Program-made: the position numbers and the translations under genes
In this document: piece by piece, positions 2,982 to 20,048 of the stretch
How positions within the stretch are numbered: position 1 is the first letter of the stretch
Layout of the letters: each line of letters begins with the position of its first letter
Notes under the pieces: model-generated
The model's input: only the letters and a program-made list of their open reading frames with translations
The model's database searches: none
Told to the model about the DNA's origin: nothing
From: a virus
DNA: 20,168 nucleotides
Virus record (IMG/VR): IMGVR_UViG_3300017779_000233
Span: 1 to 20,168 of that record
Direction: 5' to 3' (one strand)

Positions 2982-4067
2982 TTAAGAAATTTGATATTTC
3001 TCGGCGAGAAGCCTTGCAAGGGCTCTGCACTGCTGATCTCCAATGTCTGTATCGAAGGCTCCAATGGTCGCAATGTAGTTAGTGTAAACTCCAGATCCAG
3101 CCGAATGACCCCACACATGCTGACCGTGAAGACCTATGGCCTCCCAGCTCCAGCTCGTTAAAGCCCCAAGAGGGCCAGATTGAGAAAAAGCCGCCGTTAC
3201 GGGATTGGTTTCACTTGGGTCAATAAAGCCCAGAGCTTTAGAGTTGTAAAGGTGGGCCACTCTGTCCTTGTCTACCCGAACAACAAAAGCCTCAGTAACG
3301 TCGGGGACAAGCTTGCCTCCAGTAAATCTAGAGTCGGTTAGCGCTCCGTAGCTAAAGGCGTAATTTCCATCGGAGGACGGTGTTGTTGATGTGTCCTCTG
3401 CATCAAGATAAACTCTTGGAAACCCAGTAGATGGGTTGTTGGTGTTAAGAACTAAGGCTGACTTTGCGGCACGATCTTGCTGAATATCAGTCCCCACCGT
3501 CTCATCGTGAAGAAAGCAAAACGGAGTTCCAGCCATGCCCCTGCTATTTCCGCTGGTCTGTGAAGCCTCGTGCGTAACCAAAAACAAAACAAAAGAGTCG
3601 GTTTGGGTAAACGGCGTAGTGAGCCTTAAGGAATCACTGTCAGGAGACTTTCCTGTAGATACGCTGTCAAATTTTAGAGCACCGTGCGTAGAAAACGGAT
3701 GCCCAGAAATTTCAAACGTCGGGGGATTAGAAACAGTTGGGAGTGGGGTTGCGTTCTCTTGGACTACGTTTCGAACGTCGATGGCATCGTATGCAGACCC
3801 CCCAGTTCCATTGTTGGTCCAAGAAGTCACATCTTCACCAGAAGTGAAGCCAGGTGTTCCGTCAGACCTGAAATCTATCAAAGCGGTGCTCAATATGTCG
3901 TCAAGCTCCTGAGCGTTAGATACAGTGGGAGTCTTAAACTTGTTGGGTCTGCTGATAGTAAACTTTACAGACTGACCGCCCACAGTTGAAGACACCTCGG
4001 TTGACGCTTGCGCCTCAAATTGAGCCGAAACGTTTTTTCTAGTGGGTTCTGTAATACTTATAGACAT
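2982..4067 (-). CDS. Lectin/LamG-like fibre or decoration protein, 361 aa
   Basis: Start ATG at 4067 overlaps the upstream stop (TAATG). The first ~70 residues are a Thr/Ser/Val-rich beta segment. From about residue 75 the protein has the look of a concanavalin-like jelly-roll: SALIDFRSDGTPG, a Trp/Asn-rich loop, GALKFDS, a long strand FVLFLVTHEA, AFVVRVDKDRVAHLYNSKALG, and a C-terminal helix LARLLAEKYQIS, which is typical of such domains in phage fibres. No transmembrane part is seen. Carbohydrate binding at the virion surface or receptor recognition is inferred from the fold pattern. It sits directly after the portal and a small beta gene. Confidence 0.6.
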   Translation of the reverse strand: MSISITEPTRKNVSAQFEAQASTEVSSTVGGQSVKFTISRPNKFKTPTVSNAQELDDILSTALIDFRSDGTPGFTSGEDVTSWTNNGTGGSAYDAIDVRNVVQENATPLPTVSNPPTFEISGHPFSTHGALKFDSVSTGKSPDSDSLRLTTPFTQTDSFVLFLVTHEASQTSGNSRGMAGTPFCFLHDETVGTDIQQDRAAKSALVLNTNNPSTGFPRVYLDAEDTSTTPSSDGNYAFSYGALTDSRFTGGKLVPDVTEAFVVRVDKDRVAHLYNSKALGFIDPSETNPVTAAFSQSGPLGALTSWSWEAIGLHGQHVWGHSAGSGVYTNYIATIGAFDTDIGDQQCRALARLLAEKYQIS

Positions 4068-4468
4068 TACCTATTTGGCGTTACGTCTTCGTTTACGGTA
4101 AACGTCCCAAAAAAGAATGTTTCGGTAGTGGAGTTGGTGTTGTGATTTGCAGCAATGTCGTAAATGTACGTTCCAGGGGCTATGTTCTGCATGGCCTCCC
4201 TTGATGCGGAAACGGTAAGAGTACCATCTCCTGCTCCAGTCACAGACGCCAAAAGCTTGTTTCTACCCCCAACAGCGGTAGATAGAACTACATCGGCCCT
4301 GCTGTTTGGATTTGTGCTCGTCCTTACGTCCATGTCAAAACTGTAAACAGTAAGATCAACTGCAGATCCAGCTGTATCCTTGACGGTAATGTCAAAGCTG
4401 AGACTGTCGCCGCGCTTGACGACAACATTGATTTCTTCTGAAGTGTCTAGGTTAAGTTCTGTTGCCAT
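4067..4468 (-). CDS. Beta-sandwich virion protein, 133 aa
   Basis: Starts MATELNLDTSEEINVVVKRGDSLSF at ATG 4468, overlapping the portal 3' end by 17 nt in another frame. The pattern of an Ig-like or baseplate N-terminal domain is visible: VVVKRGDSLSFDITVKD, then VDLTVYSFDMDVRTS, then GTLTVSASREAMQNIAPGTYIYDI, then FFFGTFTVNEDVTP. Similar domains form the N-terminal connection module of phage fibres and upper baseplate proteins. Overlaps on both sides put it in one operon with portal and the fibre-like gene, so it may attach that fibre to the virion. This is inferred from pattern and context. Confidence 0.65.
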   Translation of the reverse strand: MATELNLDTSEEINVVVKRGDSLSFDITVKDTAGSAVDLTVYSFDMDVRTSTNPNSRADVVLSTAVGGRNKLLASVTGAGDGTLTVSASREAMQNIAPGTYIYDIAANHNTNSTTETFFFGTFTVNEDVTPNR

Positions 4469-9230: not shown

Positions 9231-9250
9231 GATGATAGTGAATTGTATTG

Positions 9251-9324
9251 TACGCCTGACAGGATTCGAACCTGTGACCGTCTGCTTAGAAGGCAGATGC
9301 TCTATCCAACTGAGCTACAGGCGC
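9251..9324 (-). tRNA. tRNA-Arg (anticodon UCU)
   Basis: Canonical cloverleaf on the minus strand. Acceptor GCGCCTG pairs with CAGGCGT (one G-T pair), followed by an A discriminator. D-arm is GCTCAGTTGGATAGAGC. Anticodon loop CTTCTAA carries TCT at 9290-9288. T-arm is CAGGTTCGAATCCTG. CCA is not encoded. It reads AGA codons, which the Arg-rich late proteins use. It lies between two short late genes. Confidence 0.95.
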
Positions 9325-16352: not shown

Positions 16353-17546
16353 TTACTCGGAAAACATCCTTGAAGCTGCCCCATACTTCATCTTAGCACC
16401 AAATCCACCCCCCTCTGCTTCTGTGAGGTTTTCAAAGAGCAGGTCTGTGTCCAAACCGAGCTCCCTAAGCGCACTTAGCTGGGCGTTGATCTGATCTGTC
16501 TTAGACAGAAGGTCGCCACCAGCCACCAGGTTGGTTATGTTGGCCATCATCTCGGGGGGTACGTTCTCATAGTTGTCCCCCATAGTCTTCTTGAAGGCCT
16601 CGTTGTACATAGCCATCTTCTTCGGATCAATGGGATCTCCCTCATCAAGTCTTCCCCCTGCTGCCATCTGACCGAGCTGGAAGCCCTCAGGCAGTCTGCT
16701 GGGGTCAACATCACCAAGCACAGTGCCCTTGACGTAGTCTCTTGTTTCTTTTGGCCAGTAGTGACCGCCGTCATACTTGCCGCTAGGCCCAGTGGCGTCT
16801 AGAAGCTTAATTGCCTCCTCGTAGTTGGTTGGGTTGATGCTGTGACCATCCTTCTTAGCCGCCTCGTTGCTCCTTAAGGCATTTTGACCGCCCTGATTGT
16901 ACGCCTCGTAGGACCTCATAAGCCTAGAAAGGTTATTTGTGGCGTTTTTAACCCACTCTGTATTGTAGGACTTGGTCATGTAGTAGTCCCTGACCTTCTC
17001 ATTGACTTCGGGGTCGTACACATTAGAGCCTTCTGGGACAACGCCATCTTTAACAGCATCCGTCAGGGCGGCTGGCGACACACCATAAAGACCGCCTGCA
17101 TACTTAGATCTAGCATTCGGGTTTCCAGAGCTTTCATAAAACATCTGAATCTTCTTTCGCTCAGTCTGATTTGGCATGTAACGGCCTCCCTGCGGCTGCT
17201 GAGTCTGTACCTGCGGCTGTTGAGTCGGTTCCTTAATTAGTCTGGGTTGATTGATCGGGGGTCCCGAAGCATCATCGTCGTATGGGAGCTCACCTCCTTT
17301 AATAGGTATGACACTCGGACCAGTAGATATTGGCCTTTTGGGGTGCGAAAGCCTTCTCTGTGGCGCGGCCTCCTCCTCCCCCGTGAAGAACTTTACAATC
17401 CTGTCGTAAATGCCGTCCTCCTCGGGCGGATCGTCCTGCGGAACGGGATCAACTTGCAATCCTTGTTGAGCAAAATAGTCCAAAGGCCTTTGAACCCTGC
17501 TTTTTCTTACTTGATAACCCTGTGGGCGTCGTGTTCTTGTAAACAT
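16353..17546 (-). CDS. Virion protein with lytic transglycosylase-like domain, 397 aa
   Basis: ATG at 17546 (MFTRTRRPQGYQVRKS). Residues 1-125 are Pro/Gln-rich and probably disordered. Residues 133-225 resemble a SLT/goose-type lysozyme core: IQMFYESSGNPNARSKY, with the catalytic Glu candidate at 138 in ESSGNP, GGLYGVSPAAL (151-161) in place of GLMQIxP, and SYEAYNQGGQNAL (212-224) in place of AYNAGxGAV. The C-terminal part is helical with GGRLDEG and GGFGAKMKYG. Such domains in virion proteins open a local hole in peptidoglycan during DNA entry. Whether it is active cannot be judged. It is the first gene of the late block. Confidence 0.7.
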   Translation of the reverse strand: MFTRTRRPQGYQVRKSRVQRPLDYFAQQGLQVDPVPQDDPPEEDGIYDRIVKFFTGEEEAAPQRRLSHPKRPISTGPSVIPIKGGELPYDDDASGPPINQPRLIKEPTQQPQVQTQQPQGGRYMPNQTERKKIQMFYESSGNPNARSKYAGGLYGVSPAALTDAVKDGVVPEGSNVYDPEVNEKVRDYYMTKSYNTEWVKNATNNLSRLMRSYEAYNQGGQNALRSNEAAKKDGHSINPTNYEEAIKLLDATGPSGKYDGGHYWPKETRDYVKGTVLGDVDPSRLPEGFQLGQMAAGGRLDEGDPIDPKKMAMYNEAFKKTMGDNYENVPPEMMANITNLVAGGDLLSKTDQINAQLSALRELGLDTDLLFENLTEAEGGGFGAKMKYGAASRMFSE

Positions 17547-18191: not shown

Positions 18192-18245
18192 GAGATATGT
18201 ATTAGAATGAAAGAAACCTATGGTTTCATTCTAATACATTATCTC
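18192..18245 (+). promoter_or_regulatory. Long leader hairpin before the 169-aa gene
   Basis: GAGATA pairs with TATCTC (18240-18245). TGTATTAGAATGAAA (18198-18212) pairs perfectly with 18224-18238, and an inner AAACC/GGTTT offers an alternative top. About 21 bp in total with one bulge. The ATG follows 7 nt later at 18253. It would form a strong 5' leader structure on the message. Confidence 0.8.
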
Positions 18246-18762: not shown

Positions 18763-18773
18763 TCGTTCTAGTA

Positions 18774-18821
18774 TCTCTTACTACACACTCTCTTCATTTA
18801 TGAAGAGTGTGTAGTTAGAGA
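18774..18821 (+). promoter_or_regulatory. Long leader hairpin before the 46-aa gene
   Basis: TCTCT/AGAGA, a T-T mismatch, then ACTACACAC (18780-18788) with GTGTGTAGT (18807-18815), a 2-nt TC bulge, TCTTCA/TGAAGA and a TTTA loop. About 20 bp. It begins 11 nt after the preceding stop, so it could act as terminator-like 3' end protection, leader, or both. No T tract follows. Confidence 0.8.
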
Positions 18822-18839
18822 GACTTACCACTCAAAATT

Positions 18840-18861: not shown

Positions 18862-19002
18862 ATGGATAAGCACATCCGCCGTCAGCTCATCGCTGACCTC
18901 ATCGACAGCCATCTCGGCATGGACCTCATCACCTGCACTTCAGCGTGGGACGACCTCACCTGCGACGAGCAGATGACCTTGGCTGACCTCATCGACAGCT
19001 AA
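18862..19002 (+). CDS. Small acidic protein with repeated ADLIDS, 46 aa
   Basis: ATG at 18862 (MDKHIRRQLIADLIDSHLG) to TAA at 19002. It is Leu/Asp-rich and helical, with two Cys and the hexapeptide ADLIDS both at residues 11-16 and at the extreme C-terminus, so the two ends are alike. It has its own hairpin leader and TCAAACTTCAA element, which supports it as a real gene. The family is not recognised. Very short acidic early proteins of phages often bind and inhibit host enzymes, but nothing here shows a target. Confidence 0.65.
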   Translation: MDKHIRRQLIADLIDSHLGMDLITCTSAWDDLTCDEQMTLADLIDS

Positions 19003-19010
19003 GCTGTACA

Positions 19011-19063
19011 GGTACACTGACGAGTCCTGAATGGACGAAACACCCCCTTGGGGTGTCTGTATC
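19011..19063 (+). ncRNA. Type I hammerhead ribozyme
   Basis: All core elements are present. Stem I GGTACA (19011-19016) pairs with TGTATC (19058-19063, one G-U). CTGACGA core is at 19017-19023. Stem II GTCC-TGAAT-GGAC spans 19024-19036. GAA is at 19037-19039. A19040-T19056 closes stem III, which continues CACCCC... as ACACCCC-CTT-GGGGTGT (7 bp). The GUC cleavage triplet is 19055-19057, so cleavage falls after C19057. Stems II and III are closed and stem I is open, which is the type I form. It sits 8 nt after one gene's stop and 20 nt before the next ATG (19083), and would leave that message with a 25-nt leader and a 5'-hydroxyl end. No stem I loop for tertiary contact is evident. Confidence 0.92.
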
Positions 19064-19072
19064 AAACTTCAA
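19062..19072 (+). promoter_or_regulatory. TCAAACTTCAA leader element, copy 2
   Basis: It starts at the last two bases of the ribozyme's stem I and ends 10 nt before the ATG at 19083. After self-cleavage it would lie almost at the 5' end of the message. Confidence 0.6.
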
Positions 19073-19082
19073 TTCATCTACG

Positions 19083-19448
19083 ATGACAAAACTTCAAGAA
19101 CTATACTTCACCATCCAAGGGTGGGACGGCTTCAGCGTGAAGCACGACCTGACCGAATACGGAGGCGGTGGCTACGCTGTGGGCGGAGCGTCCAAGTGCT
19201 TTGAAATCAAAGCCGACGACCTCTCATGGAACCACTTCGCCTACACCATCATGCCCAGCTTGCAAGAGCAGACACGAGGCAAAGCGGCAAACCTCCTCAT
19301 TGGAGGATGGGTCGATGACGACGGAATGGCCTACATCGAACTCTCTGACATCGTGCAGGACCGCAGGCAGGCGATCGAGTTGGGTGAGGAGCGCGAAGAG
19401 AAAGCCATCTACGACCTTTGGAACAACGAAGAAATCAAACTAAAATGA
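19083..19448 (+). CDS. Hypothetical protein, 121 aa, downstream of hammerhead
   Basis: ATG at 19083 (MTKLQELYFTIQGWDGFSVKHDL). A GTG 30 nt upstream is rejected because it lies within the ribozyme. It is a mixed alpha/beta soluble protein with a Gly-rich loop (TEYGGGGYAVGGASK), ANLLIGGWVDDDGMAYIELSDIV and an acidic C-terminal helix (LGEEREEKAIYDLW). It ends in an ATGA overlap with the next gene. No family is recognised. Production of its message presumably depends on the self-cleaved leader. Confidence 0.75.
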   Translation: MTKLQELYFTIQGWDGFSVKHDLTEYGGGGYAVGGASKCFEIKADDLSWNHFAYTIMPSLQEQTRGKAANLLIGGWVDDDGMAYIELSDIVQDRRQAIELGEEREEKAIYDLWNNEEIKLK

Positions 19449-19606
19449 ACGAATACCTTATGACGTACTACCGTGGACGTGACCGCGACGATTGGAGGGA
19501 GGAGAAATTCCTCGCATACACCTTGGACCTTGCACTCGAACACGCTGTGGACTGGTGTCCTGATGGGTGGACGGTCAAGAAAGTGGAACCCTCTAACAAT
19601 CAGTGA
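19445..19606 (+). CDS. Hypothetical protein, 53 aa
   Basis: ATG at 19445 (MNEYLMTYYRGRDRDDWREEKF) overlaps the preceding stop as ATGA, so it is translationally coupled. A central helix (LAYTLDLALEHAVDWC) and a DGWTVKKVEP strand suggest a small folded domain. Short phage proteins of the form 'YL[MV]xYRGR...A...A..WCPDGWTVxxV' look familiar but I cannot name them. Function is unknown. Confidence 0.7.
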   Translation: MNEYLMTYYRGRDRDDWREEKFLAYTLDLALEHAVDWCPDGWTVKKVEPSNNQ

Positions 19607-19609
19607 GTT

Positions 19610-19705
19610 ATGGGTAAACGATTAAAGCAAAACGTTAACCTCGCGTTCATCGCATTCCTTGCATGGATGGGTGGGTTGTTGACTCTGGTTGCTCTGCTCA
19701 ACTAA
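19610..19705 (+). CDS. Tiny single-pass membrane protein, 31 aa
   Basis: ATG at 19610 to TAA at 19705, 3 nt after the preceding stop. The first eight residues (MGKRLKQN) are basic. The rest (LAFIAFLAWMGGLLTLVALL) is one hydrophobic helix, so an N-in inner-membrane peptide is expected. Small membrane peptides in early phage regions can block superinfection or act on the host envelope, but nothing specific is shown here. Confidence 0.55.
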   Translation: MGKRLKQNVNLAFIAFLAWMGGLLTLVALLN

Positions 19706-19709
19706 TATA

Positions 19710-19769
19710 GAGAGTTACGTATATATACTCTCTGAACAGAGTGAAGAGAGTATATATACTTAACCTCTC
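19710..19769 (+). promoter_or_regulatory. Long leader hairpin before the 83-aa gene
   Basis: GTATATATACTCTCT (19719-19733) pairs perfectly with 19745-19759. Outside it, GAGAGTTA (19710-19717) pairs with TAAC(C)TCTC (19761-19769) around a C-T mismatch and a bulged C. About 23 bp in total. The top can refold as CTCTG-AA-CAGAG (19730-19741), so two conformations compete. Confidence 0.85.
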
Positions 19770-19796: not shown

Positions 19797-20048
19797 ATGG
19801 TGAAAGACAATTTCTTCTCACGGCCTGTCGGTGCGGCAGTCCTTTTCCTCAACGACTTCCACTTCGGTGCGAACCTGAACAAGCTCAACCGAGCGGCCAG
19901 GCTTGTACCCAAGGATGTCAAGGGCTTTGCATCTCTGATTGCCTGTGCCCCTCATGCTGACGCTGACGCGGTGCAAGACATCATCAACCTGCTCGACGAC
20001 TATGCTCACGATGCAGAGAACGACCTCATCTTCAAACTTCAGAACTAA
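19797..20048 (+). CDS. Hypothetical protein, 83 aa
   Basis: ATG at 19797 (MVKDNFFSRPVGAAVLFLND) with its own hairpin and TCAAACTTCAA element. It is helical, soluble and acidic at the end (DAVQDIINLLDDYAHDAENDLIF). LNKLNRAARLVPKDVKGFASLIACAPHADAD forms two probable amphipathic helices. The stop overlaps the next ATG as TAATG. The family is not recognised. The gene's own 3' end codes for a fourth TCAAACTTCA element that stands before the next gene. Confidence 0.7.
   Translation: MVKDNFFSRPVGAAVLFLNDFHFGANLNKLNRAARLVPKDVKGFASLIACAPHADADAVQDIINLLDDYAHDAENDLIFKLQN
20032..20042 (+). promoter_or_regulatory. TCAAACTTCAG, variant leader element, copy 4
   Basis: One change from the other copies, ending 5 nt before the ATG at 20048. 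It lies within the last codons of the 83-aa gene (Phe-Lys-Leu-Gln), so it may be chance. It is listed because the 10-base core is identical. Confidence 0.35.

Follow-up and report, generated by a model that had tools for sequence, protein, structure and literature searches.

A type I hammerhead ribozyme between two early phage genes, at a position where related phages carry hairpin or tRNA-like leaders

The early mRNA of phage T7 carries RNase III processing sites between its genes. Self-cleaving RNAs have also been described in phage DNA. In the part of the work of Perreault et al. (2011; PMC3088659) considered here, hammerheads flanked single genes or blocks of genes in prophages, and transcript processing was proposed for them; cleavage activity was demonstrated for three clusters, and tandem bacterial or prophage hammerheads cleaved a polycistronic RNA of ~2 kb in vitro, with one set cleaving in E. 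coli. Theta (HDV-like) ribozymes lie beside phage tRNAs and have been linked to tRNA-based recoding (PMC10879173, in the part considered here). Hammerheads that flank phage genes have been a known kind since 2011, and their job has been a long-standing question since their description. The hammerhead described here adds an interchange with other probable cut sites, a standard leader, a signature of flank and loop bases, and a natural allele series in cultured phages. In closely related phages, one and the same gene follows a ribozyme in some and a long hairpin or a tRNA-like RNA in others, which amounts to a natural replacement experiment and points to RNA cutting at gene boundaries.

The window, that is, the whole stretch of DNA analyzed, is the entire record, 20,168 bases long, of a marine phage. 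Its minus strand encodes the terminase and portal proteins, and the early genes begin at 18.2 kb on the plus strand (Table 1). The terminase shared 48% identity with that of an uncultured podovirus and 34 to 40% with the terminases of Flavobacterium elemo and Cellulophaga phages; because of these relatives, the hosts are probably Flavobacteriia. The predicted cut at 19057/19058 falls between the stop codon of the 46-aa gene and the AUG of the 121-aa gene, 25 nt downstream, and the original prediction had given both the 25-nt leader (19058-19082) and the 121-aa open reading frame at 19083 correctly. The only match of the 121-aa protein was phrog_17808, and a Pfam search of this protein found no match. 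A tRNA-Arg (UCU) was seen between structural genes at 9250-9324(-); it shares 93 to 96% identity with tRNA genes found in some records of Acinetobacter phages.

Table 1. Features of the early gene region in the window
Feature	Position	Strand	Basis or detail
Long hairpin with arms perfect over 16 bp, 13 nt upstream of the first early gene's AUG	18197..18239	+	Inverted repeat I3, direct reading
Early gene, 169 aa	18253..18762	+	ORF; homologues with hairpin leaders
Long hairpin with arms of 22 nt (91% complementary); putative site of RNase III type	18770..18825	+	Inverted repeat; same type in relatives
Leader element TCAAACTTCAA	18840..18850	+	Motif match
46-aa gene; UAA stop 19000-19002, 8 nt upstream of hammerhead	18862..19002	+	ORF
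Small hairpin ACAGC(UAA)GCUGU, upstream stop codon in loop	18995..19007	+	Direct comparison of clade loci
Conserved A just upstream of stem I, putative docking contact	19010..19010	+	Flank comparison
Hammerhead ribozyme, type I	19011..19063	+	6-bp stem I, 4-bp stem II, 5-nt loop II, 7-bp stem III
Loop II UGAAU (consensus U-N-A-N-U), putative docking contact	19028..19032	+	Loop comparison
Predicted cleavage site, after C17 (GUC triplet)	19057..19058	+	Hammerhead consensus, inferred
Leader element TCAAACTTCAA; its first two bases complete stem I	19062..19072	+	Motif match
121-aa gene after the predicted cut, first of three-gene block	19083..19448	+	ORF, homologues
53-aa gene, AUGA overlap with preceding stop, without own leader	19445..19606	+	Direct reading
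31-aa hydrophobic ORF, ends block	19610..19705	+	Direct reading
Long hairpin with arms of 20 nt (95% complementary; -30.0 kcal/mol) at the next gene boundary	19714..19764	+	Inverted repeat, folding
Leader element TCAAACTTCAA	19775..19785	+	Motif match
83-aa gene, hairpin leader in window; L151 and L158 homologues with hammerhead leaders	19797..20048	+	ORF, clustering

Direct reading of positions 19011-19063(+) gave a complete type I hammerhead with an open stem I. In stem I, G19011-A19016 is paired with U19058-C19063, including one G-U pair, and the core segment CUGACGA follows at 19017-19023. Stem II (GUCC 19024-27/GGAC 19033-36) is closed by the loop UGAAU, the core GAA occupies 19037-39, and stem III (ACACCCC 19040-46/GGGGUGU 19050-56) is closed by the loop CUU; C17 of the cleavage triplet GUC is base 19057. 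The core bases expected of a hammerhead ribozyme, CUGANGA and GAA with U-H before the cut, were all found within 19017-19057. The Rfam type I covariance search proposed with the original prediction did return Hammerhead_1 (RF00163) at 23.2 bits (E 0.0045 over 701 bases searched), but this match lies under the gathering score of 34, and a search of the window at the curated threshold missed the hammerhead. The RAGATH-1-hammerhead model (RF03152) gave 22.5 bits in the window against its threshold of 56.3, and 12 related loci yielded zero hammerheads at the Rfam cut-off. Because of these low scores, routine annotation misses the hammerheads of this phage group. The window RNA is a hammerhead beyond the reach of the curated Rfam model, matching in fold and core. 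A descriptor of the core plus three stems matched a single site in the 20 kb and had no match in 300 dinucleotide shuffles. The minimum-free-energy fold (-20.9 kcal/mol) contained stem II, stem III and the larger part of stem I; its folding-energy z was only -1.5, which is too weak as proof of a hammerhead, and the identification therefore rests on the core and on covariation.

Some 40 distinct IMG/VR relatives retained the core and all stem pairs despite many double changes. In 38 distinct homologues, all 570 of 570 stem cells were paired, with both sides changed in 67 of them, and the covariation score was 0.349, compared with 0.121 after shuffling and at most 0.053 with slid partners. Double changes occurred at three pairs of stem I, three of stem II and one of stem III, so that all three stems showed covariation. 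The core was invariant across the clade alignment, but GAAAC and GUC belonged to one search pattern. This pattern scan, which retrieved 37 stretches with hammerhead and leader, fixed CGAAAC and GUCU-N-U-N-UCAAACUUCA, and the invariance of those columns is partly due to this choice; it placed no constraint on stem II, on the 5' side of stem I or on the greater part of stem III. Orthologues of the 121-aa gene in L004-L007 (44 to 92% identical) have the hammerhead at the equivalent spot with altered stems, and stem II of the window and these orthologues reads, for example, GUCC/GGAC, GCGC/GCGC or GCCU/AGGC. One to four clade hammerheads were present in 20 of 20 related records of 35 to 65 kb, which had been picked because each has one. 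Chance origin was ruled out by the 0 of 300 shuffles together with covariation, and base reading, descriptor and covariation all confirm the complete three-stem type I hammerhead first proposed. Two tandem hammerheads were observed in L056 at 4210-4430; in the second, an insertion of ~110 nt enlarges the loop of stem III ahead of GGGUGUC-UAUG-UCAAACUUC. A circular RNA formed between two hammerheads was rejected as an explanation, as the window has just one and tandem pairs such as that of L056 are not the rule.

The geometry of the ribozyme is fixed in the clade: 41 of 41 variants have a stem I of 6 bp, a stem II of 4 bp and a loop II of 5 nt, with a stem III of about 5 to 8 bp. For comparison, 52 phage hammerheads of the same 6/4/5 geometry without an immediate leader match were collected, with 24 different stem I sequences; most come from other phages and some from the window's own phage group, so that the set is not fully independent. 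The base preceding stem I was A in 100% of the 41 clade members and 98% of the 52 others, stem I was closed by G-C in 41/41 and 51/52, and the base after stem I was A in 100% and 98%, respectively. Loop II was U-N-A-N-U in the clade and nearly fixed as such in the others. The fixed lengths of stems I and II and the fixed loop and flank bases would be requirements for docking of loop II with stem I, and tertiary-contact partners are, on this sequence pattern, probable. The original prediction had seen no evident partners of this kind, a view contradicted by the conserved A, G-C and AA flanks and the UNANU loop, unrelated phages included. An outer helix closing stem I was found in one case, against four expected by shuffling, and stem I is accordingly taken as truly open. 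Pairing of loop II (UGAAU) with AUUCA of the leader was discarded, since loop and leader did not covary and the leader is retained without a hammerhead in L003.

Most hammerheads of the clade lie at gene boundaries. Of 39, 33 had an upstream ORF stop at -25 to +20 nt relative to stem I and were followed by a new ORF at most 60 nt from the cut, compared with 5% of random same-strand positions. Likewise, 75 of 117 other phage type I hammerheads were placed between a stop and a start, compared with 3.8% of random positions. The distance from cut to AUG fell inside one 3-nt range in 35 of 43 cases. Upstream stops range from -22 to +17 relative to stem I, and for 8 of 41 members of the clade it is the UGA within the CUGA core that is predicted as the upstream stop. 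Small hairpins similar to that in Table 1, with the upstream gene's stop in or beside the loop, were seen directly before many clade hammerheads.

The leader element UCAAACUUCAA is repeated ahead of neighboring genes, where it is preceded by long hairpins. Its exact form TCAAACTTCAA occurs in three copies in the window, each just upstream of an early gene, and the sharing of an element with neighboring leaders has thereby been borne out. Two of the three copies have a long hairpin upstream, and another long hairpin lies ahead of the first early gene. Apart from these three hairpins, which stand at the other early gene boundaries, no inverted repeat combining long arms with a loop was found in the 20-kb window. 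The order of a hammerhead, hairpin or bare stop codon, then the element, then AUG recurred in 20 related records, with the AUG mostly 12 to 14 nt past TCAAACTTC. The long hairpins of relatives fold at about -25 to -34 kcal/mol, and direct reading found no T tract after the hairpins. Hairpin leaders have the double-stranded stem of about 20 bp or more that marks an RNase III site, and from this length they are probably cut by host RNase III; for some, which carry tandem G-A motifs and conserved loops, protein binding is an alternative.

In addition, the long hairpins (window 18770-18825 and 19714-19764, and relatives) fall into a few classes by their conserved terminal loops UGAACGUAGUGAA, UGAGUUUACGAA and UUCAUUUAUGAA, some with tandem G-A internal loops, and these classes look like an undescribed RNA motif. 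In several relatives, the leader of the first early gene contains a long hairpin (L240 near 4000-4100 and L254 near 3800-3890, gene strand). The loop side of this hairpin (GACUCUC) and a second loop a short way downstream (GAGAGUC) are complementary, possibly a kissing or switching structure.

When downstream proteins were clustered by BLASTP, leader types were mixed inside families; some "HP" calls in this clustering were weak hairpins, and only folded ones were relied on. The tree of the 121-aa family held 17 hammerhead, 3 hairpin and 1 tRNA-like leaders. Within it, L003, with a hairpin, was sister to L006, with a hammerhead (support 98/99), and supported branches required at least three changes of the hammerhead label. 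The 83-aa family has mainly hairpin leaders, with hammerheads in L151 and L158, and the 46-aa family has six hammerheads. The tRNA-like RNA of L030 scored 28.3 bits (E 0.00063) with the Rfam tRNA model, just under the cut-off of 29, and ends 7 nt upstream of the element; the 5' half of a hammerhead lies some 200 nt upstream of it. A tRNA-like candidate in L252 was unsupported by Rfam, and the output of ARAGORN with relaxed thresholds was mostly noise and was set aside. Degenerate tRNA-like RNAs, with the T arm intact and odd anticodon arms, were noted just upstream of gene leaders at L242 4100-4222, L247 7600-7760 and L131 about 3000 (gene strand). Against a processing role of the ribozyme, gene function is independent of it, since orthologues exist behind other leaders. 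A leader swap may reflect movement of the gene to a place with another leader, not replacement on the spot; the upstream gene differs in L003. If the interchange is true, the role of the ribozyme can be read from its replacements.

Homologues in cultured phages were located via the terminase relatives; a DNA similarity search for the window hammerhead in cultured phages gave just chance 18-nt matches. Model R1 found a hammerhead in Flavobacterium phage elemoA_7-9A (L261, NC_055852.1) at 17283-17350(-) with 54.4 bits (E 2.2e-11), preceding gp69 with the leader UCAAACUUU; the elemoA homologue reached 27.8 bits with RAGATH-1-hammerhead. A short CDS annotated antisense across this hammerhead is probably spurious. 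The gp69 hammerhead region was present in 68 of 68 elemo records. Its stem II is GACU/AGUC in elemoA_7-9A and, by double compensation, GGUU/AACC in elemoA_15-9B, B and C, and it reads GACU/AACC with two mismatches in elemoD (L270) and elemoF (L267), so that two compensated alleles and one naturally broken allele exist in culture. In elemoA_7-9A, a second hammerhead, of type III, precedes gp62 at 19083-19139(-) (36.3 bits, cut-off 48.5). Cellulophaga phage phi18:3 has a hammerhead before gp049, in a gene cluster also containing ardA, and phi13:2 and phi46:3 retain the gene and the last stretch of the leader with the hammerhead absent. These homologues in phages of Flavobacterium sp. BAL314 and Cellulophaga baltica make the role directly testable with no genetic engineering. 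Loss of the core or of pairing where the gene is kept had been named as evidence against the original prediction. The outcome was mixed: no broken core was found at this leader in the window's group, but a hairpin or tRNA-like RNA stands there instead in L003, L115, L135 and L030, and the homologous elemoD and elemoF hammerhead has its two stem II mismatches.

We consider it probable that the self-cleaving hammerhead serves as punctuation of a long early phage transcript, i.e., processes mRNA at a gene boundary. The chief support is that three unlike folds, each of a type that serves or may serve as an RNA cut site, share one place, and the placement statistics and leader swaps uphold the proposal of a cut between two small genes with mRNA processing as its likely job. 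From the computed structure, covariation, placement and leader interchange, we infer cleavage, its timing and its effects on mRNA ends and stability as follows. The early operon would be transcribed as a single RNA, in which the hammerhead would fold after RNA polymerase passes 19063 and cut past 19057. The upstream product would be a 46-aa message ending in stems II and III with a 2',3'-cyclic phosphate, and the downstream product a three-gene message with the short unstructured 5'-OH leader UGUAUCAAACUUCAAUUCAUCUACG-AUG. At other genes of the phage group, the boundary job would fall to long hairpins, probably through host RNase III, and at least once to a tRNA-like RNA, through putative RNase P/Z action. 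It is an even call whether the early polycistronic RNA of marine Bacteroidota phages is divided in this way by interchangeable cut sites (hammerhead, RNase III-type hairpin or tRNA-like RNA) before one standard translation leader.

A role in RNA stability, compatible with boundary cutting and not exclusive of it, is possible but unlikely as the explanation: the ribozyme would yield a 3' end guarded by a cyclic phosphate together with two helices, or a 5'-OH end that escapes nucleases sensing a 5'-phosphate, and the hairpins would protect likewise, uncut. The GC-rich stem III and the very stable hairpins, both adjoining the same leader, are consistent with this, but the tRNA-like RNA at the same place shares cutting with the ribozyme, and not mere stability. 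That the ribozyme is a control device and not punctuation, with a ribosome terminating on the 46-aa gene covering the 5' strand of stem I and cleavage depending on upstream translation, appears improbable. Upstream stops do concentrate no more than about 20 nt from stem I, many of them falling in stem I itself or in the core, and the stop-bearing hairpins ahead of many clade hammerheads fit such control; however, packing between genes alone gives equal clustering, and the spread of the stops shows no one fixed spacing. Quite improbable is a transcription signal in which hairpins are terminators, TCAAACTTCAA is a phage promoter and the ribozyme trims the upstream RNA end. The strong conservation of the element ahead of many early genes would agree with a promoter, but the hairpins lack a T tract, the element also occurs directly after stop codons without any structure, its usual distance from the AUG is that of a translation leader, and the hammerhead cut is just 4 nt from it. 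An inactive relic carried along with the leader could account for the score under Rfam gathering and for the broken stem II of the elemoD/F homologue, but is highly improbable, because fully paired stems with 67 double changes need continuing selection on the fold.

Several described systems come close to this hammerhead. With Rfam Hammerhead_1 it shares the core, the type I permutation, the 6-bp stem I and stem II GUCC/GGAC, and it differs in that its open stem I end abuts the leader element and in its subthreshold score; with RAGATH-1-hammerhead it shares the hammerhead core and a hairpin just upstream of stem I. As in T7 early mRNA, structured cut sites would lie between early genes, but one site here is a ribozyme that needs no enzyme, and RNase III action on the hairpins is putative. 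Theta ribozymes, as presented in the part of PMC10879173 considered, are also self-cleaving phage RNAs, with another fold and another target. The exchange with hairpins and tRNA-like RNAs at orthologous genes and the shared leader element set this locus apart from the prophage clusters of PMC3088659, for which the part considered does not report them. In those clusters, as here, hammerheads lie between phage genes and are proposed to cut long transcripts into mRNAs of operon or gene length.
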